Part shown: piece by piece, positions 3,099-42,141 of the stretch
Position numbering within the stretch: the stretch's first letter is position 1
Layout of the letters: the number at the start of each line of letters is the position of its first letter
Assembly: GCA_019912885.1 (NCBI GenBank)
Contig: JAIOHV010000201.1
Span: 1 to 55,692, forward strand
Length of the DNA stretch: 55,692 nt
Direction of reading: 5' to 3'
DNA from: a bacterium
GTDB lineage: Bacteria; Lernaellota; Lernaellaia; JACKCT01
The notes under the pieces: generated by a model
Seen by the model: only the letters and a program-made list of their open reading frames with translations
The model's database searches: none
What the model was told of the DNA's origin: nothing
Position numbers and translations under genes: made by a program

Positions 3099-3470
3099 TT
3101 AGAGGTCGATCAGCGCGAGGCTGATCGTCAGCGCCCGATCCACGTCCTTCATCGTGCGTGGCTCAAGGGCGCCAAGGCGCCGGATCAAACGGCGTTTGTC
3201 CATCGCTCGAATCTGATTTAACAAAACGACCGAATCCGCCGTCAATCCGCCGCCGCCCGCGGCGACGAATACTTCTGTCGGATACAACCGCTCGTTAAAG
3301 CGCGACGTGATCGGCGCGACGATGGTTATTGGACTGTATTCGTTCGATAGATCGTTTTGAATGATCAGAGCGGGGCGCTTCTTCTGGATTTCCGCGCTTC
3401 GAGTCGGGTCAAAATCTGTCAGGTAAATCTCGCCGCGTTTCGGATTGGATTTCCGTCGCGGCGCATTCAT
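3099..3470 (-). CDS. MazF/PemK-family toxin (endoribonuclease)
   Basis: A 123-residue protein of the MazF/PemK (CcdB-fold) toxin family. It has the typical N-terminal KRGEIYLTDFDPT segment, the RPALIIQND strand (the catalytic Arg region of MazF), and the core strands VVLLNQIRAMDKRRL. Family members cleave mRNA sequence-specifically and are neutralised by a cognate antitoxin. The gene overlaps the upstream antitoxin gene by 4 nt (ATGA), as in type II toxin-antitoxin operons. Length is normal and no inactivating lesion is visible. Cleavage specificity cannot be read from the sequence. Confidence 0.9.
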   Translation of the reverse strand: MNAPRRKSNPKRGEIYLTDFDPTRSAEIQKKRPALIIQNDLSNEYSPITIVAPITSRFNERLYPTEVFVAAGGGGLTADSVVLLNQIRAMDKRRLIRRLGALEPRTMKDVDRALTISLALIDL

Positions 3471-3795: not shown

Positions 3796-5502
3796 CTATC
3801 TCCCCGCCAATTCGTTCGCGATGGCGACCAGTTCGTCGTAGCCGGGCTTGGTCGAATCGTCGGGGCGGACGACGCCCCAGTAGGTTTCGACGGCTTTGAC
3901 GACATCGAGGAAGTGCGCGTCGATGTAGTCGATATTCATGATCGCCCACAGCACGAGCAGCAGCGCGTCGCCGTCGTGCCACCATGTGCCGAGCCGCGCG
4001 AGGTTTTGTGCGTCCTCGCCGGTGATGTCGATGCCGTGCGTGTCGGTTGTTTGCAGCCCGAAGTAGAGAAACCCGACGATGCCCTCGCTGTAGGCCGCGT
4101 GGAAGGCCTCGTCGATAAACTGCGCCTGGAGCGCTTCCGTGTAGCCAAGCTCCCCGGGGCCGGTGGGGTAGCCGATCTCCATGATCATGAGCGGCTTGCC
4201 GCAGCTAGCCTCGCGCATCGCCGCCGTGCGGTCGGCGAGCTCCGCGGCGTACAGTGGCGAAGCGACGTAGTAGTTCGGATACGCGTCGAACGCGACGATA
4301 TCCATGTGATCGCGCCAGAGCGTCGCCGCTTCGATCCAGGACGGCTGAAACAGCAGCCGGCTGATGTCCGGGTGCACGTCGGTGTGGAGGTTCTGCGTCG
4401 TGATGGCGTCCGGGTCGGCGTCGTGCACCGCGCGATTGAGCGTGATGAGCAGATCCGTGACGAAGTCCCAGTCCATCCACAACGAGCCGATCGCCGCAAG
4501 CCAGCCCGGTTCGCGCCATCCCCACGCGGCGGTCAGGAAGGCCTGGTTCAGTTCGTTTTCGAGCTGCCAGTGTTTGATGACGTAACCGTCCGGCGAGTCC
4601 TTGTATCCGTCGCCGTCGTAGCGCTCCACGGTAGCGCGCGTGGACATGTACATGTACGCGAGATACGCGTCGCGGCCGATCAGGTCGGGATACGCGGCGT
4701 CGCCCTGATACTTCGCCTGCTGCCCGCTGTAGCCGTGGCCGACAATGCTCCACGGCGTCAGGCCCGCGTTGACGATCGGCGCGACAACGCTATCCGCCGT
4801 CGTCCAGTCGGCGTTGTCGAGCAGATCGTCGATCCACTCCGGGTGCGCGAGCACGTCGTCGAGCGTGATCGTGATGTCGGTGATCTCCGGGAACACGTAT
4901 TTCTGGCTGATGCCGATGCGCGAGGCATTCATCCCGATTTGCGGCGCCCACTCGGCCTGATTCGCGGGATTGGACTGACTGAAGCCGAAGTGGAACGTGT
5001 CGAGCGTGGGGCCGTCGTTTGGCGGATTGTCCTTCGTGCCGTCGCAATCGTTGTCGGCGTCATCGCCGCAGATGTCGTACGCGGCCGGGTTGATATCCGG
5101 ATCGCCGTCGTCGCAGTCCTCGCCGCCGCACGCTTCATCCTCATATCCGTCCAGATCGAGATCAACGCATCCTGCCGTGTCGTCGTCGCCGGTGTCGTCG
5201 TCGCCGGTGTCGTCGTCCGCCGTGTCGTCGTCCGCGGTGTCATCGTCGGCCGTGTCGTCGTCCGAAGTGGAATCGTCGTCGGCGGTGGTGTCATCATCGG
5301 AGGTATCGTCGTCATCGGAGGTGTCGTCGTCATCGGAGGTATCGTCGTCGCCGGAGGCGTCGTCATCATCGGAAGCGGTGTCGTCGTCGGGCGCGTCCGC
5401 ATCGTCGTCATCGCCGCAGGTGCAACCGGGCAGCGCGAACATCAGCAGTAACGCGGTTATGGACGAGATGGACCGAATGGACCGAATGGACATGATGGAC
5501 AT
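3796..5502 (-). CDS. Asp-tract lipoprotein with TIM-barrel glycosidase-like domain
   Basis: A 568-residue protein. The signal sequence ends in the lipobox LPGC (C27), followed by TCG and about 75 residues of (T/S/A/G)DDD repeats. A MopE-like metal-binding motif then appears (DLDLDGYEDE, EDCDDGDPDINP, DNDCDG, about residues 108-150), as in other surface proteins. The C-terminal about 400 residues look like a clan GH-A glycoside hydrolase: WQLENELN (E317 after Asn as putative acid/base) and MEIGYPT (E442 as putative nucleophile). The polysaccharide substrate is unknown. The first codons derive from an ATGGAC-type DNA repeat, so the true start may be a later codon. It is the last gene of a run of exported hydrolases. 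Confidence 0.75.
   Translation of the reverse strand: MSIMSIRSIRSISSITALLLMFALPGCTCGDDDDADAPDDDTASDDDDASGDDDTSDDDDTSDDDDTSDDDTTADDDSTSDDDTADDDTADDDTADDDTGDDDTGDDDTAGCVDLDLDGYEDEACGGEDCDDGDPDINPAAYDICGDDADNDCDGTKDNPPNDGPTLDTFHFGFSQSNPANQAEWAPQIGMNASRIGISQKYVFPEITDITITLDDVLAHPEWIDDLLDNADWTTADSVVAPIVNAGLTPWSIVGHGYSGQQAKYQGDAAYPDLIGRDAYLAYMYMSTRATVERYDGDGYKDSPDGYVIKHWQLENELNQAFLTAAWGWREPGWLAAIGSLWMDWDFVTDLLITLNRAVHDADPDAITTQNLHTDVHPDISRLLFQPSWIEAATLWRDHMDIVAFDAYPNYYVASPLYAAELADRTAAMREASCGKPLMIMEIGYPTGPGELGYTEALQAQFIDEAFHAAYSEGIVGFLYFGLQTTDTHGIDITGEDAQNLARLGTWWHDGDALLLVLWAIMNIDYIDAHFLDVVKAVETYWGVVRPDDSTKPGYDELVAIANELAGR
5461..5500. repeat. ATGGACnnn short-period repeat forming the start of a signal sequence
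   Basis: Five imperfect 9-bp units (ATGGACCGA, ATGGACATG) on the plus strand. On the coding strand they give the MSI/RSI repeats at the N-terminus of the glycosidase-like lipoprotein. The same array occurs at 7897-7943 in the equivalent place of another lipoprotein gene. Confidence 0.7.
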
Positions 5503-5619
5503 ATCAGCGCGCCTCGGCGTTCAAAAGTATTCGTTTTCCTGGGTGTCCTCTGTTTCTTCGCGGCGCTCTCCGTGTACCGCCGGGATTGCATTTCCGTTCG
5601 CCACTCGCCATTTCCTTTC

Positions 5620-8016
5620 CTAATCGTCGTAGTAATCGAATGCGGCGACATCCTCGGTCAGGTCGATGAAACGCTTCACCGGCGGGTCGTCCCACGACTG
5701 TTCGGCGCCGCCGGGCCAGAGCACCTTAACCTCGTCGATCGTCGTCTTGTCCCCCAGGCCGAATTCGACCGGCAAGGACGGCGTGCTGCTGGCGTGGCCC
5801 TTGGCGCACTGCACCTCGCGGATTTGCGTCAGGTCGCCCGCGACAAGCGTGACGCGCGCGCCGCACGCGGAGCGGTTCGAGGTCACGCCGGTCAGGCGGA
5901 ACGTCGCCCAATTATTGTCCTGCCCCACGTCGTTGCGGAAGACGTGCGTGACGAATCCGCCGGACCGGCGCGTGACGAGCAGGTCGAGATCGCCGTCGCG
6001 GTCGAAATCTCCCCAGGCGTGGTTCGTGCAGTCGTGCATCTCGATGCCGGCCCAATACGTGACGTCCATGAACGTGCCGTCATCGAGTTGGCGATAGAGG
6101 CGGCCGTAGTGCCCTTCGTAGAGATCGGACAGGAACACGTCGAGCCGGCCGTCGTTGTCGAAATCGACGAACGACACGTCGATCTCGCCCTCGTCGCACG
6201 TGAAGCCGAGCGCGTCGGTGACCTCCGTGTAGAAAAAATCCGGCGCACCGGAGTTGAGATTCATGCTGCTCGGCTCGCTCGACGGCTGGTAGCGCGGGTG
6301 GCTGATCTCCGCGAGGTACGCGTCGAGGTCGCCGTCGTTGTCAATGTCGCCGAAGTCCGACGCGAAGGTGTTGCCGGGGCGGTTGCCGCGCGGCGAATCC
6401 AGGTTCGCGTCGTCCGCCACGTTCACGAAGGTGCCGTCGCCCTGGTTTTCCCAGAACACGTTTTTCACGCGGCCGTATTCGGACACGAAGATATCGGCGA
6501 GTCCGTCGTTGTTGTAGTCCGTCCATGTCACGCCGTAGGTGGGACGCCCGGCGAGCACGCCGATCGCCGATGCGTCGGTCACGTCGGTGAACGTGCCGTC
6601 GCCGTTGCCCGCGAAGAGCACGTCGGGGAACGACGGGATATTCGGATACTCCACGAGCCAGTTGCCGACGTAGAGGTCCACGACGCCGTCGCCGTTGTAA
6701 TCCGCGGCCGCGGCGGCCGACGTGCTGGGTCGGTCGCCCTCGAACATCACGTCCACCCCGTTCGATTCCTTTTCGGTGAACACGCCCGTGCCGTCGTTCA
6801 ACAGCACGGTGGACGGCGCGTCGACCGCGTCCGTCACGGGCGTGTTGACGCCGAGGTACACGTCGATGTCGCCGTCGTTGTCGAAATCGGCCCAGACGGA
6901 AAAGCCGGCGTAGTAGCCGTTCAGGCCGGAGGCGTCCGTCACATCGACGAACATCCCTTCGTCGTTGTGGTACACGCTGAAGCCTTCCTCGTCGTATCCG
7001 CCGCGCGACACCACGATGTCGTCCCAGCCGTCGCCGTCGATGTCCGCCCACACGGTGCGCTGGCGATGCAGATCGCCCGGCAGGCCGATGTCGGTCGTCA
7101 CGTCGGTGAAGGTCTCCGACTCCTTCTCGCAGAAGGTGTAGCCGTTCGCCCGCACCATGTAGTTATGCCCGGCGACGCCCCACTGGAACGGCGCGTTCGC
7201 GGCGGCCCAGTCCGCGCTGTAGTAGCGACTGCGCAGGTGGTAATTGTCCGTTCCATCCACGCCGAGCAGCGGCTCCTCGGTCACGTGTTCGTAAGCCACC
7301 CAGAACTTGTCGGCGGGGTAGCGCCAGAAATCGCGCGGCGGCAGCTCCACGCGCACCCAGCCCGCCTCCTCGGGTATCGCAAGGCGGATCGGCGTGATGA
7401 GATCGCCGTAGCGATCCGGCTCGGATCCGCACACGTCCGGCAAAAGGCGGACGATCACATCGCCGCAGCCGCCAAAGAAATAAAGATCGACGCTCGTGAC
7501 GTGGAACGGGTGCGGCGCGATGACCTGAATCGCCTCGATGTCGCCGGGTTCGAGCCCGCCGCGCCCGGCCTTTTTTACGCCGTCGTCGAGCGCGTATTGC
7601 GCCTCGACGTTCGCGGCCGGGTCCGTGGCGTCCGGGCAGATCGAGGCGTAGAGCGCCTCGCGGTCGATCGGCGCGCCCGGTTCGTCGCTTTCGACGACCG
7701 TCGCCTCGTCGACGCACTCGTAAACCGAGTCGTCGTCCCCCGCGTCGTCGTCGTCGTCATCATCATCATCGCCATCCGCTTCGTCGTCGTCGGCCGCGTC
7801 GTCGTCAGAGACATTGTCGTTGTCGTCATCGTCGTCGTCGTCGCCGCACGAGCAGCCGGCGGCCATGGACAGCGCCGCAAGCAGAAGCAACACGAAAATG
7901 GACCGAATGGACATAATGGACATGATGGACCCTATGGACCGGATCGACGCCTTAGACGCGCGGCGTTGCAGAGCGTCGCCCAGGTCGCGATTCTGATTTT
8001 CGTTCGTGGTTTCCAA
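5620..8016 (-). CDS. Asp-tract lipoprotein with FG-GAP/VCBS propeller and ASPIC/UnbV domain
   Basis: A 798-residue protein. A lipobox MAAGC (C55 from the TTG start) is followed by SCG and an Asp-rich tract. Seven D-x-D-x-D-G type repeats (for example DIDGDGWDD, DFDNDGDID, DYNGDGVVD, DIDNDGDLD, DFDRDGDLD) suggest a seven-bladed calcium-binding FG-GAP/VCBS propeller. The C-terminus (SNRSACGARV, REVQCAKGH, FGLGDKT, VKVLWPGG) matches the ASPIC/UnbV domain. Such proteins are surface-located; ligand unknown. The TTG start is 12 nt after the upstream stop and follows GAGG. An ATG at 7921-7923 would give a more typical signal peptide. Five codons around it come from an ATGGAC-type repeat. Confidence 0.85.
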   Translation of the reverse strand: METTNENQNRDLGDALQRRASKASIRSIGSIMSIMSIRSIFVLLLLAALSMAAGCSCGDDDDDDDNDNVSDDDAADDDEADGDDDDDDDDDAGDDDSVYECVDEATVVESDEPGAPIDREALYASICPDATDPAANVEAQYALDDGVKKAGRGGLEPGDIEAIQVIAPHPFHVTSVDLYFFGGCGDVIVRLLPDVCGSEPDRYGDLITPIRLAIPEEAGWVRVELPPRDFWRYPADKFWVAYEHVTEEPLLGVDGTDNYHLRSRYYSADWAAANAPFQWGVAGHNYMVRANGYTFCEKESETFTDVTTDIGLPGDLHRQRTVWADIDGDGWDDIVVSRGGYDEEGFSVYHNDEGMFVDVTDASGLNGYYAGFSVWADFDNDGDIDVYLGVNTPVTDAVDAPSTVLLNDGTGVFTEKESNGVDVMFEGDRPSTSAAAAADYNGDGVVDLYVGNWLVEYPNIPSFPDVLFAGNGDGTFTDVTDASAIGVLAGRPTYGVTWTDYNNDGLADIFVSEYGRVKNVFWENQGDGTFVNVADDANLDSPRGNRPGNTFASDFGDIDNDGDLDAYLAEISHPRYQPSSEPSSMNLNSGAPDFFYTEVTDALGFTCDEGEIDVSFVDFDNDGRLDVFLSDLYEGHYGRLYRQLDDGTFMDVTYWAGIEMHDCTNHAWGDFDRDGDLDLLVTRRSGGFVTHVFRNDVGQDNNWATFRLTGVTSNRSACGARVTLVAGDLTQIREVQCAKGHASSTPSLPVEFGLGDKTTIDEVKVLWPGGAEQSWDDPPVKRFIDLTEDVAAFDYYDD
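7897..7943. repeat. Second ATGGACnnn array within a lipoprotein signal region
   Basis: Imperfect 9-bp units (ATGGACCGA, ATGGACATA, ATGGACATG, ATGGACCCT) give the residues SIGSIMSIMSIRSI just before the hydrophobic core of the signal peptide. The array matches the one at 5461-5500, although the two proteins are otherwise unrelated outside the Asp tract. Confidence 0.7.
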
Positions 8017-8028
8017 ATTCCTGCCTCG

Positions 8029-8469
8029 TCAGCGCGTAAGCGCGTCGCGGAGTGGCACGGGGGTCGAAAGCGCAAAACCCGACGGCACGATCGTGACCGC
8101 GGTTGTCTTTCCGGTTGCGCCGAATCGCCAGCGAATCGCCTGGCCGTTCATCGCGTCGAGGCGCGAGCGCTCGAACACCACGAAATAGAGGCCGCCGGGG
8201 TACGACGCGTACTCCTCGATGCGCGTTTCGCCGACGGACAGCTCGACGGTATCGGCCGTGCCGCGCGGGAATGTCCCCTTCACGCGCACGACGTAGCCTT
8301 CGGTGTACGTCACGGGCTTTTCATCGCGCGTCACGGTGACGGCTTCGGGCAGCGTCACGCGCGCGATGTCGTATCCGGTGATCGAGACCGCGTCCGCGCG
8401 GTCGCCGGCAAGCGCGGCGCCGGCCGCGAGAACGAAAAGGATGGCGATGATCGAGAGGGCGCGCGTCAT
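8029..8469 (-). CDS. Small secreted hypothetical protein
   Basis: A 146-residue protein with a clear Sec signal peptide (basic MTR, hydrophobic core, AAGAALA before GDRADA). The mature about 125 residues look like a beta-rich domain (repeated VTV/VVRV/VELSVG strands) with no Cys. I do not recognise the family. Its ATG overlaps the stop of the upstream hydrolase (ATGA), and the FG-GAP lipoprotein starts 12 nt downstream, so the three are probably co-translated. An accessory periplasmic or surface role is the natural guess from context. Confidence 0.75.
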   Translation of the reverse strand: MTRALSIIAILFVLAAGAALAGDRADAVSITGYDIARVTLPEAVTVTRDEKPVTYTEGYVVRVKGTFPRGTADTVELSVGETRIEEYASYPGGLYFVVFERSRLDAMNGQAIRWRFGATGKTTAVTIVPSGFALSTPVPLRDALTR

Positions 8470-9716
8470 GATGCGTCTCCGTTTGTCTTGCGTACATTCA
8501 GGTATTTATCCCAGAACTCAAAGATTTGGGACAGTAACGACGTCCCGGTGCGCGGATCGACGAAGCCGTACGCCGGCCTGAGGACGTGAAGCGGCGCGGT
8601 CGAAAACTGATTGATGATGGCGCTGTACGCATAAATCGCGGGCACGGTCGAATTCTGGTAGGGGTCATTCGGCGCACGATCGAGATAGTTGGCGTCGGAA
8701 TCGCTCACCAGGGCGTGAAAGGCTCGGGGGCGCACGCGCACGGTGACGTTCGCGACGACCGCGCCACCGGAATGGCCGATCAGCCCGATGCGGTCGGGTT
8801 CGACGGCCGTGAGCGACGCGACGTACCGGTGCGCCAGCAGTTGCTCGTACACATGCAACGACAGCAGCGAAAAGCCGGCGAGCAAGAGGCGCCTCGAGAT
8901 GTCGGACTCGACCTTGTCGGCCAGCATCGCGCGGCCGGAGACCATCGCGATGAGGTACCCGTGCGCGGGGTACGTTTCGCCGCCGTAATCCGTCCGAAAG
9001 ATTTCGATGCTGTCTCCGTGCCCGTGCGCCGCGACGATGGCCGGAAGGAATTCTTCGGGATCCCGGGGTGCGAGGATGACGACGCGAAAGGCGCCCACAT
9101 CCTCGTCGAGGATGAGGATTTCCTTTTCGCACGAATCGGCGTCCACGCGCGTCGAAACGACCTCCACCGTCATTCGCCTTCGTTCGAGCCGGTCAAGGAG
9201 AAACTCAATGTTCAGGCGATTCGCGAGCTTCTTCGCGAGGACGTCTGGACGCGGGAGCTTGACGAAAAGCGGCGGCGGGACAGTCAACATGTCATCCAGC
9301 CGCGCCTGCGTGATTTCGCGCGCGCGCGACCTGTTTCGATCGAGAAATTTCTCGTAACCCCGCACGCACCGATGCGCGTTCACGGCGCAGGAAAGCTCGG
9401 AAAAATCGCCCAGGTAATCCGTCTCGTCGATATTCGCGCCCGCGCGAAAATCGTCGAGCCAGCCGCACATGGCGTCGTAATCGGCCCCGTGATAACCCAC
9501 GCGCGGCGGAAGGCGAGCGGCGTCGCCGCGACCCGGCGCCGGCGTGTCGTCGTCATCGCCGCCGTCATCGAAACCCTGTCCGTCCGCGTCTTTTCCCGGC
9601 GCGGCGGGCCACATCGCGACCAGCAGCGCGGCCACGAGCGCGGCGCCCAGGGGTATTGCCCGGCGCCGGCGCGCGGCGCGGTACAGGCGCGTTTTCCACG
9701 CCCGGGCGGGGGTCAT
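8466..9716 (-). CDS. Membrane-anchored or secreted alpha/beta hydrolase
   Basis: A 416-residue protein. A basic N-terminus precedes one hydrophobic segment (about residues 21-38), then a low-complexity linker with a short DDGGDDDD run. The C-terminal about 300 residues carry an alpha/beta-hydrolase core: HGHGD (oxyanion-side loop) and nucleophile elbow GHSGG (S316). A later Asp and His could complete the triad but I cannot assign them. The family is peptidase/acetyl-xylan-esterase-like; substrate unknown. The start overlaps the stop of the upstream gene by 4 nt and the stop overlaps the next start by 4 nt, so it sits in the middle of an operon. Confidence 0.75.
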   Translation of the reverse strand: MTPARAWKTRLYRAARRRRAIPLGAALVAALLVAMWPAAPGKDADGQGFDDGGDDDDTPAPGRGDAARLPPRVGYHGADYDAMCGWLDDFRAGANIDETDYLGDFSELSCAVNAHRCVRGYEKFLDRNRSRAREITQARLDDMLTVPPPLFVKLPRPDVLAKKLANRLNIEFLLDRLERRRMTVEVVSTRVDADSCEKEILILDEDVGAFRVVILAPRDPEEFLPAIVAAHGHGDSIEIFRTDYGGETYPAHGYLIAMVSGRAMLADKVESDISRRLLLAGFSLLSLHVYEQLLAHRYVASLTAVEPDRIGLIGHSGGAVVANVTVRVRPRAFHALVSDSDANYLDRAPNDPYQNSTVPAIYAYSAIINQFSTAPLHVLRPAYGFVDPRTGTSLLSQIFEFWDKYLNVRKTNGDAS

Positions 9717-11653
9717 GGCGTCGCGAGCTGAATGTCGTCGAACGACACCAGCCCCTTGGGGTTGACGTCGAATTCGAAGATCACCGCCTCGATATCCGTG
9801 CCCACGATCGGGCTGGCCGACAGATCCGCGAGCGGGATGCGCACGGTGTTCAGCACCGTTTTCGATCCGTCGGACGCGCCGTATTTCACGCGGGCGGGGT
9901 ACGTCAGCGTGGCGTAATCCGACACGGGTACCGCGGGCTGCTCCACGCCGTCCACGACGACGCGCACGGAAAAGTCCTGCGCCGCGTCGAACGTGTTGTA
10001 GTTGTCCGCGACCTCATACACCGTCGCGGCGCGGAAGACGAGTGCGTCAAAGTCGTCGGCCGACGCATCGAGCGCCGGCAGATCGACTCGATATTCCGAC
10101 GCCGACGTCCAGCCCGCGCTCACGCCGCGTGAGCTGCCGGGGTAGAGCGGCGACTCCGTCCATATCGAGGTCGTGGCGCTGTTAGTCGCGCCGGCAAGAC
10201 TGCCCGACGTCTTGTTCGCGTCTTCCTCGTAGTGGTCAAACCACATCCGCTCCGGGCCCTGGAACTGCTGGTTCATCACGATCGTTCCGGGGAGCGAGCC
10301 GTACGTCGTCTCGCCGGCGAAGAAATTGCGGTAACAGGTCTCGCCGTCGAACGACGCCAAAAACCAGGACGTGATGAAGTTAAGGCCAATGGCGCGCTGG
10401 TCCGGGCCGGACAGCGGCGCGGGATCCGAAAACGACGGCGGGTACGGATCGCCCACCGCCGACCACACCGTGTTCCAGTGCGCGTGGTTCGCGCCGTAGA
10501 CGAACGCCAGCGCCTTGGCGGCCGTCGTTTCCTCGCCCACCGGCAACGCGCGATCGTACGTGGCGTGGCCCTGGAAATCGGACACGTCGCCGTCATTCGA
10601 TCCGTGCATGATCGCGTAGTTCACGTCGCGCGGCACGAAGTTCTGGAACAGGATCTGCCCGTCCACCGGAGCGATGGCGAACAGCGCCCGGATGTCGAAA
10701 TCGAAATCGTGCAGCGGGTCGCTCGGGTTGTGCAGCGTCGTATTGAAATCCTGCGCCGCCACGACCGCTTCGCCGCCGCGTGAATGCCCCGCCAGGCCGA
10801 TGCGGGACAGGTCGATCTTCTGGTAGAGCGGGTGCGTCGGCGTCTCGTTCCACTCTCTAAACAATTGCAGATGACGCAGCAGCACGATTCCGCGCGCGTC
10901 ATTTTCGCCGGACGCGCCGTTCAGGAAATCTTCCTCCACCGAAAACGCGATGTAGCCGTGCGTCGCGAGGTGGCTCGTCAGGTAGTCGTAGCCCGGATAG
11001 GAAAACTCCGCCGGATCGTGATTGCCATGAACGACGAGGACGACCGGAAACGGCCCCGCGCCGTTCGGGTAGTAGCCGACCGCGTGCAGTGGCACGGCCG
11101 TCGGCTTGATGCCGCGGCCAAAACGCACGTAGAAGTCGAGAACGAAAACATACGGCTGAACGTTCGTCGTGCGCTTGTCGGGGTCGCCGTCGTGGCCGTA
11201 CTCCATCGCGGTCGTGGCAAAAGGCCCGGGCGTCGCCGGGTCGGGCGGATCACCGATGCACGGATCCATCGGGAACAGCGGACCGTCGCTCACCGTGTCG
11301 TCGTCGCCGGTGTCGTCATCGCCGGTGTCGTCGTCGCCCGTGTCGTCGTCCCCGGTGTCATCATCGCCCGTATCGTCGTCCGACGTGTCGTCATCCGCCG
11401 TGTCGTCGTCGGCGGTGTCGTCGTCGAAATCGTCGTCGACGTCATCGTCACCGGCGTCGTCATCCGAATCGTCGTCGTCGAGATCGTCGTCGCCGGCATC
11501 GTCATCCGCGCTGTCGTCATCGCCGTCGTCGTCATCGTCAGCGTCGTCATCGGTGGAATCGTCATCGTCGTCGTCGTCGTCGCCGCACGAGCAGCCGGCG
11601 ACGGCACTTGCGAAAAACGCGGCCAGAAGGATGGCAATCAGAAATCGGGGCAC
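9713..11653 (-). CDS. Asp-tract lipoprotein with chlorophyllase/PETase-like alpha/beta-hydrolase domain
   Basis: A 646-residue protein. The GTG at 11651-11653 follows GGAGG with good spacing and is preferred over the ATG at 11687-11689. The signal peptide ends in lipobox AVAGC (C21) then SCG, followed by about 100 residues almost entirely of DDD repeats. The repeats are irregular at first and then six or more exact TGDDD units. The catalytic domain has VHGNHDP and the nucleophile elbow GHSRGG (S291), as in chlorophyllase-like and polyester-hydrolase-like families. The last about 180 residues form a separate domain ending in a beta-rich SFDDIQLATP segment, probably a carbohydrate-binding-like sandwich. 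It is the first gene of the operon. Surface esterase activity is inferred. Confidence 0.8.
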   Translation of the reverse strand: MPRFLIAILLAAFFASAVAGCSCGDDDDDDDDSTDDDADDDDDGDDDSADDDAGDDDLDDDDSDDDAGDDDVDDDFDDDTADDDTADDDTSDDDTGDDDTGDDDTGDDDTGDDDTGDDDTVSDGPLFPMDPCIGDPPDPATPGPFATTAMEYGHDGDPDKRTTNVQPYVFVLDFYVRFGRGIKPTAVPLHAVGYYPNGAGPFPVVLVVHGNHDPAEFSYPGYDYLTSHLATHGYIAFSVEEDFLNGASGENDARGIVLLRHLQLFREWNETPTHPLYQKIDLSRIGLAGHSRGGEAVVAAQDFNTTLHNPSDPLHDFDFDIRALFAIAPVDGQILFQNFVPRDVNYAIMHGSNDGDVSDFQGHATYDRALPVGEETTAAKALAFVYGANHAHWNTVWSAVGDPYPPSFSDPAPLSGPDQRAIGLNFITSWFLASFDGETCYRNFFAGETTYGSLPGTIVMNQQFQGPERMWFDHYEEDANKTSGSLAGATNSATTSIWTESPLYPGSSRGVSAGWTSASEYRVDLPALDASADDFDALVFRAATVYEVADNYNTFDAAQDFSVRVVVDGVEQPAVPVSDYATLTYPARVKYGASDGSKTVLNTVRIPLADLSASPIVGTDIEAVIFEFDVNPKGLVSFDDIQLATP

Positions 11654-28412: not shown

Positions 28413-28499
28413 TACCCAACTTTTTGAGTGATCCGGCCGCGAGGGAGGGTCTTTCGGCGGGCCGATTCATCGAGAAATCCAATTGGGAGTATGGCGACA

Positions 28500-29225
28500 A
28501 TGAAAGCAATGCAAATCCTCATGGCGATGATCCTCGTCCTTCTCGTGGGATCGTTCTCCGTGGCCTTCGCGCAGGATGACGATACGGCCGCGGACGACGA
28601 CGCCGCGGATGACGACACGGCGGCGGATGACGACATGGACGACGACGCGGCCGACGATGACGATGACGATGACTTCTCGGCCGAAGTGACGTTCTCCAGC
28701 CCGACGGCGCTCGAAGCGGACTCCGAATACGAATTCGAGTTCTCCGTCGCGAACACGACGTCCGCGGATGTCGAAGGCAACCACTGGGTCTATCTGGTCG
28801 AGATGTTCATGCCCTCGCCCGACTACGTGATCGACAGCGCGAGCGTCCACACGCCCGATCCGCTGCATCCGTCCGACGGCGACTGGAACGCGCAGGTGAT
28901 CGAGGATGTCGACGGCACGCAGGGCATCCTTTGGGAGTTCAACAACATCGCGACGACCGCGATCAATGGCGACATCCAGGAAGGCGAGTCGCTTGACTTC
29001 TCCTTCATGGCGACGACCGACGCGGACGCGACGGACGGCTTCCCCTGGCGCGTCGTGGCCGATAGCGGCCTGTTCGACACCGGCGTCGCGGAAATCGGCG
29101 GCTCGGCGGACGACGACACCGACGACGACACCGACGGTGACGATGACGACGCGGCCGATGACGATACCGACGGGGAACCGAGCGGCGGCGACGATGACGA
29201 CGATGACGGCGGCTGCGGCTGCTAA
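28500..29225 (+). CDS. Secreted protein with Asp tracts at both ends and C-terminal GCGC (copy 1)
   Basis: A 241-residue protein. A Sec signal peptide ends AFA before QDDD; no lipobox. An Asp tract of about 45 residues leads into a beta-rich domain of about 120 residues (SPTALEADSEYEFEFSVANTTS, HWVYLVEMFMPSPDYV, DGFPWRVVADSGLF). A second Asp tract follows, then the terminal GGCGC. I do not recognise the domain. The ATG at 28500 has GGGAG at a proper distance; the ATG at 28491 is too close. It has its own promoter and terminator. A close paralog lies directly downstream. The end may be a sorting or cross-linking signal; that is inference. Confidence 0.8.
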   Translation: MKAMQILMAMILVLLVGSFSVAFAQDDDTAADDDAADDDTAADDDMDDDAADDDDDDDFSAEVTFSSPTALEADSEYEFEFSVANTTSADVEGNHWVYLVEMFMPSPDYVIDSASVHTPDPLHPSDGDWNAQVIEDVDGTQGILWEFNNIATTAINGDIQEGESLDFSFMATTDADATDGFPWRVVADSGLFDTGVAEIGGSADDDTDDDTDGDDDDAADDDTDGEPSGGDDDDDDGGCGC

Positions 29226-29463: not shown

Positions 29464-30138
29464 ATGACGCGCTTTTGGTTTGCGGGCCTTCTTGCCTGCC
29501 TGGCGATGATCGTCGCCGTCCCCGCTTTCGCGCAGGACGACGATACCGCCGCGGACGATGATGCCGCGGACGATGACGCCGCGGACGACGACGCCGCGGA
29601 CGATGACATCGGCGACGATGACGACGGCGCGGGCTTTACCGGCACGGTCGAATCGTCAAGCCCCGCGACGCTCGAATCGAACACGCAGTACGAGTTCAAC
29701 TTCCGCGTTTCCAACACGACGAGCCCAAACGTCGAGGGCCAGCACTGGATCTACCTCGTCGAGATCTTCATGCCGTCGCCGGATTACGTGCTCTCGAGCG
29801 ATCTCATGGTTCCGGACTCGGACCACGGCGGCGAGTGGGTCGCGGAAATCTTCGAGGACGAGATGAACATCCAGGGGATCAACTGGATGCACAACACCAC
29901 CGTGACGACCGCGTTCGTGGGCGACATCGAGGAAGGCGACTTCAAGGACTTCTCGTTCATCGCCACCACCGACGAGTTCGCGACGGACGGATTTGACTGG
30001 CGCCTTGTGGCCGATAGCGGATTCATGCAGACGGGCACCGCGTTCATCGGCGCCGACGATGCCGACGACGACACGGCCGACGGCGACGACGATGACGACG
30101 ACGATGATGACGATGACGACGACGGCTGCGGCTGCTAG
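29464..30138 (+). CDS. Secreted protein with Asp tracts at both ends and C-terminal GCGC (copy 2)
   Basis: A 224-residue paralog of the preceding protein. A signal peptide ends PAFA before QDDD, then a regular AADDD tract. The same beta-rich core follows (SPATLESNTQYEFNFRVSNTTS, HWIYLVEIFMPSPDYV, DGFDWRLVADSGFM). The end is an Asp run of about 13 residues and DGCGC. GGAGGG precedes the ATG. Core residues are conserved between copies while the Asp tracts differ in length, so the tracts evolve by repeat gain and loss. It has its own promoter and terminator. Function unknown. Confidence 0.8.
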   Translation: MTRFWFAGLLACLAMIVAVPAFAQDDDTAADDDAADDDAADDDAADDDIGDDDDGAGFTGTVESSSPATLESNTQYEFNFRVSNTTSPNVEGQHWIYLVEIFMPSPDYVLSSDLMVPDSDHGGEWVAEIFEDEMNIQGINWMHNTTVTTAFVGDIEEGDFKDFSFIATTDEFATDGFDWRLVADSGFMQTGTAFIGADDADDDTADGDDDDDDDDDDDDDGCGC

Positions 30139-30519: not shown

Positions 30520-31812
30520 ATGCCCGCGGTCATCATTATCGGTACGCAGTGGGGCGACGAAGGCAAAGGCATGGTGGTCGATCTGTTCAGCGAGCAGGCC
30601 GACTTTCTGGTGCGTTATCAGGGCGGCAACAACGCCGGCCATACGGTCGTTGTCGGCGACGAAACGACGATCCTTCATCACATCCCGTCGGGCATCCTTC
30701 ACGACCGCGTGACGTGCGTCATCGGCGACGGCGTCGTCGTGAATCCGAAGGTGCTAATCGAGGAGATGGACCGCCTGATCGCGAAAGGCCGCCTGAAAGA
30801 CCCGGCGTCGCTTCTCATCTCCGACCGCGCGCACGTCATCATGCCGTGGCATATCGCGCTCGACGCCGCGGCCGAGGATCGCATGGGCGCCGGCAAGATC
30901 GGCACGACCGGACGCGGCATCGGCCCGGCCTACAAGAGCAAGATCGGCCGATATGGCCTTCGCTTCGGCGCGCTGATCGACAGGGAGACGCTCTCGCATC
31001 ACGTGCGCGAGGCGCTGCCCGAGGCGAACTTTTTGCTGACCGAGTACTACAAGCGCGACGCGCTCGACGCGGATGCGATCGTCGAGGAATACGGCGCGTA
31101 CGCCAAGCGCCTCGCACCGCACGCGGCGAACACGTATCGCGTTGTGGGCCGCGCGGTGCGCGAGAAAAAGAACGTGCTGTTCGAAGGCGCGCAAGGCACG
31201 ATGCTCGACATCGACCACGGCACGTACCCGTTTGTCACGAGCAGCAACACGGTCGCCGGCGGCGCGTGCACCGGCGGCGGCGTCGGTCCGCGATCCATCG
31301 ACAAGGTGCTCGGCGTCATGAAGACGTACACGACGCGCGTGGGCGGCGGGCCATTCCCGACCGAGCTGACGGACGACATCGGCGAACATCTGGTGCAAAA
31401 GGGCCACGAGTTCGGCAGCACCACCGGCCGGCGCCGGCGCTGCGGCTGGCTCGATCTGGTGGTGGTGCGTTACGCGGTGGAGCTGTCGGACATCACGGGC
31501 CTTGTCGTCACCAAGCTCGACGTGCTGGACGGGCTGCCGGAGCTGAAGGTGGCGGTCGGCTACGAGATCGACGGCAAAAATACCGACGAGATGCCCGCGG
31601 ACCTCGGCGCCCTCACGCGCGCGAAGCCGATCTATGAGACGCTGCCCGGCTGGACGGAAACGACGACGGAGATCACGCGGTACGAGGATCTGCCGGCAAA
31701 CGCGCGGAGCTACCTGGAATTTTGCGCGAAGTTCCTCGGTGTTTCGATCGACGTCATTTCGATCGGCCCCAAACGCAGCCAGACGGTCACGCTCGCCAAT
31801 CCGTTCGCGTGA
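30520..31812 (+). CDS. purA: Adenylosuccinate synthetase
   Basis: A 430-residue enzyme that forms adenylosuccinate from IMP, aspartate and GTP, the first committed step to AMP. Motifs: GTQWGDEGKGMVVD at the N-terminus (P-loop and catalytic Asp), NNAGHTVV, TTGRGIGPAYKSKIGRYGLR, EGAQGTMLDIDHGTYPFVTSSN, and TTGRRRRCGWLD. Length matches the family. GGAAGGAC precedes the ATG. Monocistronic between repeat-rich spacers. Confidence 0.97.
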   Translation: MPAVIIIGTQWGDEGKGMVVDLFSEQADFLVRYQGGNNAGHTVVVGDETTILHHIPSGILHDRVTCVIGDGVVVNPKVLIEEMDRLIAKGRLKDPASLLISDRAHVIMPWHIALDAAAEDRMGAGKIGTTGRGIGPAYKSKIGRYGLRFGALIDRETLSHHVREALPEANFLLTEYYKRDALDADAIVEEYGAYAKRLAPHAANTYRVVGRAVREKKNVLFEGAQGTMLDIDHGTYPFVTSSNTVAGGACTGGGVGPRSIDKVLGVMKTYTTRVGGGPFPTELTDDIGEHLVQKGHEFGSTTGRRRRCGWLDLVVVRYAVELSDITGLVVTKLDVLDGLPELKVAVGYEIDGKNTDEMPADLGALTRAKPIYETLPGWTETTTEITRYEDLPANARSYLEFCAKFLGVSIDVISIGPKRSQTVTLANPFA

Positions 31813-31842: not shown

Positions 31843-32130
31843 GAGATGTCAGTGCCGCAAACGGAGGCCGCGATGTCAGTGCCGCAAACGCAGTCACGCC
31901 GAAGCGAAAGCGAAGGCGGACGGAGTGCGCGGTCGATACCGCCCAGGCATCGCCGCTCGTCCGCGATGTCAGTGCCGCAAACGGAGTCACGCCGAAGCGA
32001 AAGCGAAGGCGGACGGAGTGCGCGGTCGATACCGCCTCGGCATCGCCGCTCGTTCGCGATGTCAGGGCCGCAAACGGAGTCACGCCGAAGCGAAAGCGAA
32101 GGCGGACGGAGTGCGCGGTCTCGTACGCCA
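31843..32130. repeat. Three tandem copies of a 93-bp repeat
   Basis: GATGTCAGTGCCGCAAACG begins copies at 31872, 31965 and 32058 (exact 93-bp period, with a partial extra start at 31845). Each copy continues GAGTCACGCCGAAGCGAAAG, CGAAGGCGGACGGAGTGCGC and a GGTCGATACCGCC end. It is the reverse-orientation counterpart of 19424-19600. Stop-free in several frames but without ribosome binding sites, so probably non-coding. Confidence 0.85.
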
Positions 32131-37487: not shown

Positions 37488-37898
37488 ATGAACGGGCGAA
37501 TCTGGTTGTGGACCGCTTTGATCGTGGCGCTTTTGGCCGCCTCGGCGCTTGTCGCCTGCGGCGATGACGATGACGACGACGAAGAAGAAGACGACGACGC
37601 GCCGGCCGACGACGACGCGGACGACATGGCCGATCCCGTCGGGGAGTGCACCGACGAATCGCAGCGGCTGTACGGCAATCCCGACGGCTGCATCGCGCCG
37701 CAGCAGGAGCCGGCGTCGTCCGAGCAAGCCTGCCAGTCCGGTTACAACGCGGCCGCGGGCAGCTCGTGCGGCGAGCAGTCGTTTATCGACCTCGTGAATT
37801 GCATCAAGGACATCTCGTGCGACGACGTCGACCAGGCCAACGCCGACTGGGCCGACTGCGCGGTGACGTTCGAAAACGCCGTCGCGGCGGCGTGTTGA
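37488..37898 (+). CDS. Small Asp-tract lipoprotein with Cys-rich domain
   Basis: A 136-residue lipoprotein. A signal peptide ends in lipobox LVAC, followed directly by [15 protein letters not shown]. The mature domain (about 85 residues) holds eight Cys, likely four disulfides, in a helical pattern ([57 protein letters not shown]-terminal Cys). GAGGAG precedes the ATG. It ends at a terminator-like hairpin. Unrecognised family; the Asp tract after the lipid Cys links it to the other lipoproteins in the window. Confidence 0.8.
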
Positions 37899-37959: not shown

Positions 37960-40900
37960 TTGCGCGGCCAACTTTTTACCCAGCAATATCTTCTTGAAGG
38001 CATTCGAGAGACCGGCGTATGGAAATCGATCACCGATGACGATGTCGAGCGTTTCCGCGCATTCTTGATCGATCTGTTTGGAAAACATCGCGAATCCGAC
38101 ACGCGCAACGAGGCGGAAACCGAACACCAGATCATCATCCCGATCCTGAAGGCGCTCGGCTGGCACTATCTGCCGCAACAAAGCGCGACGCCGCGCGGCC
38201 GCCGCAAACTCCCGGATCTTCTCCTTTTCGATGACGACGCAAAACTTCGTGCCGCGCAAAATCACCGGCACGAATCCGAACGATACGCCTACGGGCTGTG
38301 CGTCGCGGAATCCAAGCGATGGAACCGCCCGCTCGATCGTGCCGACGACCGCGACACCGACGATACGAAAACGCCGTCAAACCAGATTCTGGCGTATCTG
38401 GCGCGCGTCGCGGTTATCCCGGGCAGCCGCATCGAATGGGGCATTCTCTCCAACGGGCGCCACTGGCGGCTGTATTGGCAAAAGGCGTATTCGCAGTCGG
38501 AGGAATTTTTCGATATCGATCTTGCGATCGCCGCGGGCGCGGCCGGCTTTGCGGGCGACCTTTTTGATACCGGGTACGAAGACGTTGGCGACGCGTTGAG
38601 GCTGTTCATCATCGTTTTCCGGCCGGCTTCGTTTTTCCGTGAAGGAACCGGCGCACGCTCGTTTCTCGAGGAGATGCAAGCCGAAGGCCGCTTGTGGGAA
38701 CGCAAAATCGCCCAGGACCTTGGCGAACACGTCTTTCACAAGCTCTATCCCGATTTGCTGAACGCCATCGCCGAGCGCGCGCCAGCGGCGACGCTCGACG
38801 AGGTCCGGCACGCCGCCCTGATTTTTCTTTACCGGCTTCTATTCGTTTTTTACGCGGAAGATCGTGACTTGCTGCCGGTGAAGGACGAGCGATACGAACA
38901 CTACTCCCTTCGACGAATTCGCCACGACGTCGCCGAGCGCGTCGATCGCGGTGAAAAACTTTCCGGTAAGCTCGCTCGATATGACCGTCAATTACGGGAC
39001 TTGTTTCGCGCGATCGCGCATGGGGATACGGAAGTAGGATTGCCCGCTTATAACGGCGGCCTGTTTGACGACGAGAGCATTCCCGAGCGGGCGCGCGTCG
39101 AAATCCCGGATTCGGTCCTGATCAAGATCATCGATCGCCTATCGCGCCATCGCGATACGCAGGCGGACGGCGACGCGCGGTCCCAATGGATCAACTACCG
39201 CGATCTTTCCGTGCGCCATCTGGGTTCGGTTTACGAGCGGTTGCTGGAATTCGTCGCGTATCGGCAGGCGGACAGAAAGATCGGCATCCGGCCGAACAAG
39301 TTCGCGCGCAAGGATACCGGCAGTTATTACACCGCGGACGACCTCGTCAAACTGGTCGTAAAGGAAGCCGTCGGCCCCCTGATCGCCGAGCGCATGCATG
39401 TTTTCGAGGTGCGTGCCCAGGAAATGACATCCTCCCGGGCGTCGGTGTTTGATCGACTTTCTCATTTGCAGGAGAAGGACGCGGCCGACGCGATCCTTCG
39501 CCTGAAGGTCTGCGACCCGGCGATGGGAAGCGGGCATTTTCTCGTGGCGCTTGTCGATTACCTCGCCGACGAAATCATCCGCGTGCTCGGCGATGCGGCG
39601 GGCGTCGTGCACAAGTCGGGCGAGCGATACGTATCTCCGGTTGAAAAACGCATCCGGCAGACGCGGCAGCGGATTCTCGACCACGCCCGCGACGAGGGCT
39701 GGCGCGTGGAGGCGTCACAACTGGACGACCGGCATCTCGTGCGCCGCATGATCCTGAAGAGCGTGGTTCACGGCGTGGACAAAAACCCCATGGCCGTCGA
39801 ACTCGCCAAGGTTGCGTTGTGGCTGCATACGTTCACGGTCGGCGCGCCGCTTTCGTTTCTCGATCATCATTTGCACTGCGGCGATTCGCTGTTCGGCGAA
39901 TGGATGTCGGGCGTCGTGGGCGACATGGAAAAGGTCGCGCCGCTATTCGCGTCGGGTTTCTTTCGCGACCTCGCGCGGTTCGCGCCCGCGCTCGATCAAA
40001 TCTCCGAAATCGCGGACGCCGACCTCACCGAGGTCAACACGTCGCGAACGCTCTACGCAATGGTGGAAGACAAGCGGCGGCCGTACTGGCGGCTGGCCGA
40101 CCTTTGGCAGGGTTTGCGCTGGCTGGAATCGGGGGCGGACAAGGACGAACAGAAACGGGTCCGGGAGGGGCGCAAGCAACTGCTGGACCGCGCCTCGCGC
40201 CTGGCCGAGGCGGCGGAACGCGGCTATCTCGACGCAAACGGCCGAAATGGCGGGGACAATGGCGACGCCATGCGGAACCTGAACGAATTGCTTGCGCGGG
40301 CGTTGTCGGTCGCGGATGACGAACATTTTTTCCACTGGGAATTTGCCTTTCCGTCGATCTGGAAAATTGAGCAAAACTTTCGCGTTCCCGACGGTGGATT
40401 CGACGCCGTTGTCGGAAACCCGCCGTGGGACCGCATGAAGATCCAGGAGGTGGAATGGTTCGCGATCCGCGCGCCCGAAATCGCGAAGCAGGCGCGCGCG
40501 GCTGACCGGAAGAAGCTCGTGGCCGAAATGAAGGAGGCGCGAAATCCGCTGGCCCTGGAATACGAAGAAGCGCGGCGGAACACCGAGTCGGCGATGCGCC
40601 TCGCGCGTTCAAGCGGCGAATACGACCTTCTGGCGAATGGCGACATGAATCTGTACAGCCTGTTCGTCGAAAGGGCCGCGCGGCTCGTCAAGCCGACGGG
40701 CATCGTCGGGTTGCTGACGCCGTCGGGGATCGCATCGGACAAGTCGGCGGCGAATTTCTTCCGAACGATTTCGACGAATGCTCGCCTTTCGGCTCTGTTT
40801 GATTTCGAGAATCGCGATCGGAAGACGGGAAAGGAGTTCTTCCCGGATGTCGATACGCGGTTCAAATTCTGTGCGTTGATCTTTGGCGGCGAGACGAGGA

Positions 40901-42141
40901 AATTCAATCGCGTCCGGTGCGCGTTTTTCCTGCATCGCGTGGAAGAGATCGACGAGGCGGAGCGCGTCTTCGAATTGACGCCGGCCGACTTCGCGCTGGT
41001 GAACCCGAATACGGCAACGGCGCCGATCTTCCGAGAGCAACGCGATGCGGCCATCACGACGCGGATTTATCGCGAACACCCGGTGCTGGTGGACCGGCGC
41101 GAGGACGAGCCGAAATATCTGTATCCGATCAAATATTTGACGATGTTTCACATGACGAACGATTCGCACCTCTTCATGACGAAGGACGAGCTACAAGCGA
41201 TGCACGTCAGGCGGTTCGCCGGCAATCAGTGGAAGAAAGGCAAAAAAACCTGGTCCCCACTTTACGAGGGCAAGATGGTGCAGATGTACGACCATCGTGC
41301 CGCGAACGTCATTGTGAATCCGGAAAACGTTCACCGCCCTGCGAACGCGGAGTCAGCGACGGACGAGCAGCACCGCAATCCGTCTTGGCTCCCGACGCCG
41401 CAGTTCTGGGTTGCCGAATCGGAAATCCCCGTTTCGAAGGAAATTTCCTGGTTCGTCGGCTTCAAGGAAATCACCGCGCCGACGAATGCCCGCACGATGA
41501 TCGCCGCGGTGATCCCGCGCGCGGCGGTGGGGAACACCTTGCCGCTTCTGCTTCCGAGTTCCGATGCCGCCGACACCGGCATGCGTTTATTGTGCATGCT
41601 GGCAAACATGAATTCCTTCGCATTCGATTTTGTTGCCAGGCAGAAAGTTCAGGGACAGCATTTGAATCTTTATATCGTCGAACAATTGCCGTTCATCGCG
41701 CCCGAAACGTATGCAGCTTTCACGCGGGAGGACTGTGATGTCGATGTCGCGGCGTTTGTCCGGGACGAAGTCGTCCGCCTGTCGTACACGTCCGTCGATC
41801 TGAAGGACTTCGCGGCGGAATTCGGCGTGACGGGCGAGCCGTTCGCATGGAACGAGGAAGACAGGCGGCACCGCATGGCGCGGCTCGACGCGCTGTATTT
41901 TCTGCTTTACGGCATCTCGCACGACGACGCGAAGCATATCCTCGACAAGTTTCCGATCGTCCGGGCGCAGGACGAGGCTCGATACGACGGCTGGTTCCGC
42001 ACGCGGGATCTCATCGAACACTACATGAGCGCGCTTGACGACGGCGATTTCGAGGTCGTCGTCACCCCGGGGCCGCCGCAAAAGCCGTTCGTGCCGAAAA
42101 GCAAGCGGCGGAAAACGGGCGTCGCCCGCGGTTCGCGTTGA
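37960..42141 (+). CDS. Single-chain type IIG restriction-modification enzyme (Eco57I-like)
   Basis: A 1393-residue fusion. The N-terminal about 250 residues contain a PD-(D/E)xK-type nuclease signature: P85-D86 (PDLLLF) and E117-S-K119. The central methyltransferase has motif I DPAMGSG (starting at D519) and motif IV NPPW (N820), typical of adenine-N6 methylation. The C-terminal about 400 residues should contain target recognition. Such enzymes cut and methylate the same site with one polypeptide. The TTG start has GGAG 6 nt upstream. No separate specificity or accessory defence gene is adjacent, and both nuclease and methylase motifs look intact. PglX-like defence methylases share the methylase but usually lack this nuclease. 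Confidence 0.85.
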   Translation: MRGQLFTQQYLLEGIRETGVWKSITDDDVERFRAFLIDLFGKHRESDTRNEAETEHQIIIPILKALGWHYLPQQSATPRGRRKLPDLLLFDDDAKLRAAQNHRHESERYAYGLCVAESKRWNRPLDRADDRDTDDTKTPSNQILAYLARVAVIPGSRIEWGILSNGRHWRLYWQKAYSQSEEFFDIDLAIAAGAAGFAGDLFDTGYEDVGDALRLFIIVFRPASFFREGTGARSFLEEMQAEGRLWERKIAQDLGEHVFHKLYPDLLNAIAERAPAATLDEVRHAALIFLYRLLFVFYAEDRDLLPVKDERYEHYSLRRIRHDVAERVDRGEKLSGKLARYDRQLRDLFRAIAHGDTEVGLPAYNGGLFDDESIPERARVEIPDSVLIKIIDRLSRHRDTQADGDARSQWINYRDLSVRHLGSVYERLLEFVAYRQADRKIGIRPNKFARKDTGSYYTADDLVKLVVKEAVGPLIAERMHVFEVRAQEMTSSRASVFDRLSHLQEKDAADAILRLKVCDPAMGSGHFLVALVDYLADEIIRVLGDAAGVVHKSGERYVSPVEKRIRQTRQRILDHARDEGWRVEASQLDDRHLVRRMILKSVVHGVDKNPMAVELAKVALWLHTFTVGAPLSFLDHHLHCGDSLFGEWMSGVVGDMEKVAPLFASGFFRDLARFAPALDQISEIADADLTEVNTSRTLYAMVEDKRRPYWRLADLWQGLRWLESGADKDEQKRVREGRKQLLDRASRLAEAAERGYLDANGRNGGDNGDAMRNLNELLARALSVADDEHFFHWEFAFPSIWKIEQNFRVPDGGFDAVVGNPPWDRMKIQEVEWFAIRAPEIAKQARAADRKKLVAEMKEARNPLALEYEEARRNTESAMRLARSSGEYDLLANGDMNLYSLFVERAARLVKPTGIVGLLTPSGIASDKSAANFFRTISTNARLSALFDFENRDRKTGKEFFPDVDTRFKFCALIFGGETRKFNRVRCAFFLHRVEEIDEAERVFELTPADFALVNPNTATAPIFREQRDAAITTRIYREHPVLVDRREDEPKYLYPIKYLTMFHMTNDSHLFMTKDELQAMHVRRFAGNQWKKGKKTWSPLYEGKMVQMYDHRAANVIVNPENVHRPANAESATDEQHRNPSWLPTPQFWVAESEIPVSKEISWFVGFKEITAPTNARTMIAAVIPRAAVGNTLPLLLPSSDAADTGMRLLCMLANMNSFAFDFVARQKVQGQHLNLYIVEQLPFIAPETYAAFTREDCDVDVAAFVRDEVVRLSYTSVDLKDFAAEFGVTGEPFAWNEEDRRHRMARLDALYFLLYGISHDDAKHILDKFPIVRAQDEARYDGWFRTRDLIEHYMSALDDGDFEVVVTPGPPQKPFVPKSKRRKTGVARGSR

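Follow-up and report, generated by a model that had tools for sequence, protein, structure and literature searches.

The window analysed here, positions 1-55,692 of contig JAIOHV010000201.1 (assembly GCA_019912885.1) of a bacterium of the phylum Lernaellota, encodes four putative lipoproteins, A to D, in which the predicted lipid-bearing cysteine is followed within a few residues by a long run of aspartates (Table 1). As the original prediction had it, all four open reading frames (ORFs) are real and carry a signal peptide and a lipobox Cys. The junctions read ...FALPG/CTCGDDDD in A, ...SMAAG/CSCGDDDD in B and ...SAVAG/CSCGDDDD in C, with the slash placed before the Cys, and D starts CGDDDDDD. 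In the ORF of B an internal ATG is probably the true start. Among the domain assignments proposed earlier, FG-GAP/ASPIC for B and a hydrolase for C were confirmed, while the glycosidase-like call for A could not be confirmed: Pfam and PDB sequence searches with its domain gave no match, and a single-sequence AlphaFold model was unusable (mean pLDDT, the predicted local distance difference test score, 36). The domain of D gave no significant Pfam match. Two further ORFs of the window bear Asp tracts at both ends, and it was these that led to the discovery of a second, C-terminal class, missed by the original prediction, which had treated the tract as a trait of lipoproteins.

Table 1. Asp-tract proteins encoded in the window and one excluded neighbour.
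Feature	Coordinates	Strand	Description
N-class lipoprotein A	3796-5502	-	Signal peptide; lipobox Cys codon 5424-5422; C-T-C-G; Asp tract ~5412-5170; 450-residue domain
N-class lipoprotein B	5620-8016	-	C-S-C-G-D(n); lipid Cys codon 7854-7852; tract ~7842-7743; FG-GAP and UnbV_ASPIC domains
Exported hydrolase (Peptidase_S9-like)	8466-9716	-	Hydrophobic N-terminus, then a short acidic stretch only; excluded from the members
N-class lipoprotein C	9713-11653	-	C-S-C-G-D(n); lipid Cys codon 11593-11591; tract ~11581-11294 (~107 amino acids); chlorophyllase/PETase-like hydrolase
C-class protein	28491-29225	+	Signal peptide of the signal peptidase I type (..AFAQ); Asp tract behind the signal peptide and at the C-terminus; end G-G-C-G-C-stop (29208-29225)
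C-class paralogue	29464-30138	+	Signal peptide of the signal peptidase I type; Asp tracts at both ends; end D-G-C-G-C-stop (30121-30138)
N-class lipoprotein D	37488-37898	+	Short form C-G-D(n); lipid Cys codon 37557-37559; tract ~37563-37628; small Cys-rich domain

To count proteins of the first architecture, hereafter the N-class, we combined pattern searches with fetched stretches of the own genome (4.8 Mb, assembled in 230 contigs); lipoproteins were called with a regular expression. The pattern TGYGGN(GAY)3 (TGYGGNGAYGAYGAY) matched this genome 116 times and the reversed control once; for the version with four Asp codons the counts were 108 and 1. Over the seven genomes of the phylum comparison (G000 to G006) the four-Asp version was counted 108, 67, 102, 5, 0, 36 and 64 times, and it was present in five of the six genomes other than our own. 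Outside the phylum, each of 186 genomes had at most two matches, and among these few, three (L199-L201) look like genuine single lipoproteins. Rather than being confined to the contig, the pattern is thus spread over the genome and the phylum, and orthologues from six genera retain it.

The surroundings of 100 listed motif places were fetched, and 97 N-class proteins were extracted from them. To judge by their N-termini, with a basic n-region, a hydrophobic h-region and a lipobox ending in Cys, these are lipoproteins cleaved by signal peptidase II (SPase II). The residue preceding the lipid Cys is G in 55, A in 22, S in 17 and T in 3. Seventy have the form C-x-C-G-D (x being S in 50, G in 14, T in 3, Q in 2 and A in 1) and 27 the plain form C-G-D; the second Cys, which had been thought unusual, is therefore not unusual here, nor is it essential, orthologues with CGHGGGSDDD or CDDDD being found as well. 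The tracts span 14-106 amino acids (median 35) and consist of Asp to 62%. What follows them is diverse: 47 Pfam families were recognised at E <= 1e-4, the commonest in just 5 of 94 members, which bears out the proposal of a shared N-terminal module on unrelated domains. This cargo consists mainly of secreted hydrolases (GH31, GH92, GH5, pectate lyase, penicillin amidase, ceramidase, GDPD, carbonic anhydrase and others). A recurrent type is a very small lipoprotein in which a long Asp tract precedes a short Cys-rich domain (L021, L023, L056, L070, L088, L090 and lipoprotein D of the window), apparently with many paralogues in the own genome.

We also examined an unbiased sample of ~454 kb, in which 355 genes were called and 22 lipoproteins detected, defining a tract as at least 9 Asp in 20 residues. 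Tracts were encoded by 17 of the 355 genes, and in each the tract follows a hydrophobic N-terminus (recognised in 16 by the automatic test, Fisher p = 9.5e-7, and in one by eye). About half of the 22 lipoproteins had an Asp-rich start, including the variants CVPGDDDD and CQGGGDDDD, which indicates that the Asp tract occurs more widely than the exact CGD motif. Pal and BamD are lipoproteins that face the periplasm. We recovered four Pal N-termini (CGQEKPEAE and the like; identified by TIGR02802 matches just under the cut-off) and five BamD N-termini (CGPKFE and the like; TIGR03302 matches over the cut-off); CGKEPP, CKKCEP and CAPKFE are further starts among the nine, and none of them carries a tract.

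The second class, the C-class, mirrors the first. We extracted 45 such proteins, in which an Asp tract precedes a final GCGC (35), CCGC (7), ACGC (2) or SCGC (1). Read from the terminus inward, both classes show C-x-C-G-D(n). Their domains include subtilase, trypsin-like, C25, M14, M12, PAD and purple acid phosphatase. In the 35 with a readable signal peptide this is of the signal peptidase I (SPase I) type; the regular expression flagged a possible lipobox in 6 of the 35, of which by eye only that of L225 is plausible, since in the others the Cys lies within the hydrophobic core and an AxA site follows. Conversely, a CxC end was seen in none of 90 closed N-class proteins, and the two architectures thus come close to excluding each other. 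In the unbiased sample six genes end in CxC, and all of them encode exported D-tract proteins. GCGC-stop ends were counted 44, 34, 40, 8, 52, 66 and 33 times over G000 to G006, against 1, 3, 2, 1, 3, 4 and 6 in reversed controls, and in other phyla they stayed near the control level, at most 9; the tails of G003 and G004 follow an equal plan in another repeat style. Read-through or TGA recoding of these ends was considered and not supported: the proportions of TGA, TAA and TAG are roughly ordinary, and only 5 of the 45 are followed, in any frame, by a hydrophobic stretch. In five members (L098, L126, L140, L154 and L226) a mucin-like STTTT or GATTTT repeat lies immediately N-terminal of the Asp tract, as if it were a second, possibly glycosylated, stalk before the acidic one.

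Could the tracts be no more than low-complexity DNA expanded by slippage, or an assembly artefact, with no selection on the protein? They are indeed imperfect arrays, with periods found by Tandem Repeats Finder (TRF) to be mostly multiples of three, from 15 to 45 bp, and the runs of Asp are most often spaced by 5 residues, next by 4. The TGDDD unit, previously described as a 12-bp repeat, comprises five codons and hence 15 bp. The repeats, however, match at just ~70-89%, two neighbouring Asp codons are the same less frequently than after shuffling (0.555 versus 0.593 +/- 0.010), and the GAC:GAT ratio in the tracts is about that elsewhere in the same genes. The tracts also hold a fixed position at exported termini and occur in independent genomes of several genera. 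The ordinary codon ratio, together with the lower-than-shuffled identity of neighbouring codons, points to tracts maintained by selection on the peptide rather than by slippage, and weakens the earlier view that the units should vary in copy number. On the codon shuffles and the phylum-wide presence we rejected slippage and artefact, and give this explanation practically no credence. Lipoprotein C illustrates the conservation: orthologues were found in five of the six other genomes, all with a long Asp tract (in G003 only the tract matched), and the tract is kept across six genera, while the Cys-proximal motif drifts through CSCGDDD, CGCGDDD, CGGCGGDDD, CGHGGGSDDD, CDGCGGDDD and CDDDDDD.

The original prediction had also not noted the likeness of these termini to known surface-sorting motifs. 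Lipoproteins that depend on the type II secretion system (T2SS) and GspN, such as InvL and PulA, carry short G/S- or N/D-rich motifs after the lipobox Cys, with Gly/Asp hybrids in two other species, and a Pal leader fails to support export by this route (PMC12802150). The N-class shows the same sequence features, with C-(S/G)-C-G-D-D-D or C-G-D-D-D after the lipobox, hydrolase cargo as in PulA, a Pal that lacks the motif, and a secretin and a GspN-type protein encoded in the genome. It differs in that its acidic motif extends over 14-106 residues, mostly has a second Cys and is present in about half of the sampled lipoproteins; dependence on T2SS is here a prediction, and the GspN found in the phylum is of the TIGR04411 type. 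On the fetched stretches gspG-N were not recognised beside gspC-F, so that GspN was looked for by family: TIGR04411 matched over the cut-off in all seven genomes, as did GspD in six, with matches to GspD in the seventh too (our own copy is split across two contigs). In G001 the genes for GspN (C23, 80784-81635; L312) and BamD (81730-82413; L245) adjoin.

The C-class, for its part, resembles the MYXO-CTERM proteins processed by myxosortase, a large set of exported proteins with an N-terminal signal peptide, which carry a C-terminal 'generic GCGC motif' with an invariant Cys and are anchored at the surface via T2SS (PMC11980579). Unlike these, C-class proteins stop at GCGC, with no transmembrane helix or Arg-rich tail, and leave nothing for myxosortase to cut; the own-genome sequence that was fetched, 1.07 Mb counting overlaps, contained no helix-bearing MYXO-CTERM-type tail. 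The NCBIfam family NF058595, 'lipo-invert putative C-terminal anchoring domain', suggests by its name a C-terminal counterpart of a lipoprotein anchor. It was tried as the family of the C-class and rejected: its best score in the phylum was 28 bits against a cut-off of 37, at most 1 of 35 C-class proteins matched, and its weak matches were unspecific, including N-class signal-peptide/Asp N-termini and occurring in all 14 control genomes. We therefore filed the C-class under neither, because the helix and Arg tail are absent in the one case and the score is under the cut-off in the other. A literature search, which covered few subscription papers, returned nothing relevant on poly-Asp lipoprotein linkers or on surface proteins of the phylum.

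The match of the N-class to T2SS/GspN lipoproteins and of the C-class to MYXO-CTERM, with GspD and GspN in all seven genomes, leads us to propose a surface-display tag, common to the lineage, that brings its own anionic tether, comes in two mirror-image forms and is most likely served by T2SS with GspN. We put the probability of this reading at about one half. In the N-form, SPase II would expose the lipidated Cys, followed by (x)-C-G-D(n); the lipid-proximal G/D residues would act as a sorting motif that diverts the lipoprotein from Lol, the default route. The poly-Asp run, long and disordered, would keep the folded enzyme off the membrane, a spacer role that is plausible. In the C-form, a protein with an SPase I signal peptide would end in D(n)-G-C-G-C, the terminal CxC serving as the anchor, attached covalently through a lipid or in some other way, and the tether would again be the Asp run. 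For both forms T2SS with GspN would be the most likely route.

Several observations weigh against the proposed tag. The tract lipoproteins CVPGDDDD and CQGGGDDDD have no CGD, so the exact motif cannot be essential; G003 is poor in both classes (N 5, C 8), and the exact N-class motif is absent from G004. The C-class pair of the window is tracted at both ends, and the tract is thus not strictly one per protein. Surface location in the phylum is inferred from sequence; GspD and GspN are common proteins that may have another cargo; a G/D motif is also known as plain Lol avoidance; and the modification of the C-terminal Cys has no candidate enzyme.

The nearest alternative for the N-class is surface display by flipping of the Bacteroidota type, independent of T2SS, with acidic residues by the lipid Cys as the lipoprotein export signal (LES). 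C-S-C-G-D-D-D and C-G-D-D-D do resemble the SDDDD that follows the Cys in surface lipoproteins of B. fragilis, where acidic residues, preferably Asp, lie a few positions from the lipid (PMC5080379), and one orthologue in the phylum (L294) has C-D-D-D-D directly. The LES, however, is a signal of 4-5 residues in another phylum and without a long tract, CxC or C-terminal counterpart; tracts of 35-106 residues are well beyond such a signal, and the C-class, which has no lipobox, is left unexplained. The LES consensus lies at about +2 to +6; Asp in the N-class starts at +3 (C-G-D) or +5 (C-x-C-G-D), behind S or G, and runs far longer. The closest named relative of our organism is moreover a 'Deltaproteobacteria' FEN-1099 metagenome-assembled genome, not a member of the Bacteroidota. 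We regard this route as improbable. Acidic residues might instead simply block Lol release and retain the proteins in the inner membrane, as in the Asp rule of E. coli, where Asp at +2 is a retention signal, and GDD is cited as Lol avoidance in Pseudomonas. Position +2 is nevertheless S or G, not Asp, in almost all members, polymer-degrading hydrolases are expected outside, and retention has no need for long tracts and does not account for the C-class, all of which makes it very improbable.

It may also be that the tract carries no sorting information and is an inert tether, a soluble, disordered spacer or anti-aggregation segment, with sorting achieved by other means. The free drift of its sequence while its presence and rough length persist would fit, as would its occurrence at either end and behind SPase I sites. 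Yet constraint is strongest at the residues closest to the terminus (x being S or G, the CxC, the G before D, and GCGC at the C-terminus), and Pal and BamD have no tract, so that we deem it unlikely, if still worth some weight. That the CxC stands beside a dense carboxylate tract at termini of both kinds would suit a module that chelates cations or cross-links surface proteins by disulfides, akin to the disulfide or metal site proposed at the outset; a single Cys in 27 of 97 N-class members, however, means that CxC chemistry is not the common function, and we hold such a module to be most improbable.

Within the proposed tag, the C-terminal end may itself be a previously undescribed anchor. 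A helix-free D(n)-G-C-G-C or D(n)-C-C-G-C end, the mirror of C-x-C-G-D(n), would then have its terminal Cys lipidated or otherwise covalently attached, like a MYXO-CTERM 'pre-cut' in the gene itself. We advance this tentatively, as possible rather than probable.

Some further features of the window were recorded. Past the Asp tract of lipoprotein A (~5038-5170, minus strand) the protein has a CVDLDLDGYEDEACGGEDCDDGDPDINPAAYDICGDDADNDCDG stretch with no Pfam match, which we take to resemble the Asp/Cys metal-binding motif of MopE-type proteins. A 9-bp unit, GTCCATNNN, is repeated five times each at 5456-5500 and 7895-7939 (minus strand), where it encodes the n-region (MSIMSIRSIRSI...) of the signal peptides of the adjoining lipoproteins A and B. 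Eight more arrays of at least three units in a 400-kb genome sample indicate a dispersed repeat that here overlaps coding starts, and the N-termini of L055 and L064 are like the MSIMSIRSIRSI n-region pattern. Beside the lipoprotein cluster lies an ORF of 123 amino acids (3099-3470, minus strand), by eye similar to a MazF/PemK-type toxin, and right after lipoprotein D one of 1393 amino acids (37960-42141, plus strand), by eye similar to a large restriction-modification enzyme with the adenine methyltransferase motif VVGNPPWDRM. A direct repeat (31868-32120; 93 bp, 2.7 copies, 96% identity) is located just downstream of ORF 30520-31812, by eye purA-like.

Surface sorting in Gram-negative bacteria is known from few lineages. 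With the large natural set described here, more than 150 proteins in the own genome by motif count, the rule that acidic residues beside the anchor signify surface location can be tested directly. The set also reveals a C-terminal GCGC signal that lacks the helix on which MYXO-CTERM processing depends in current models. From sequence alone, the surface proteome of a phylum that has been little studied could be listed, and if the C-terminal anchor is real, the phylum would have one surface-display system working from either end of a protein.

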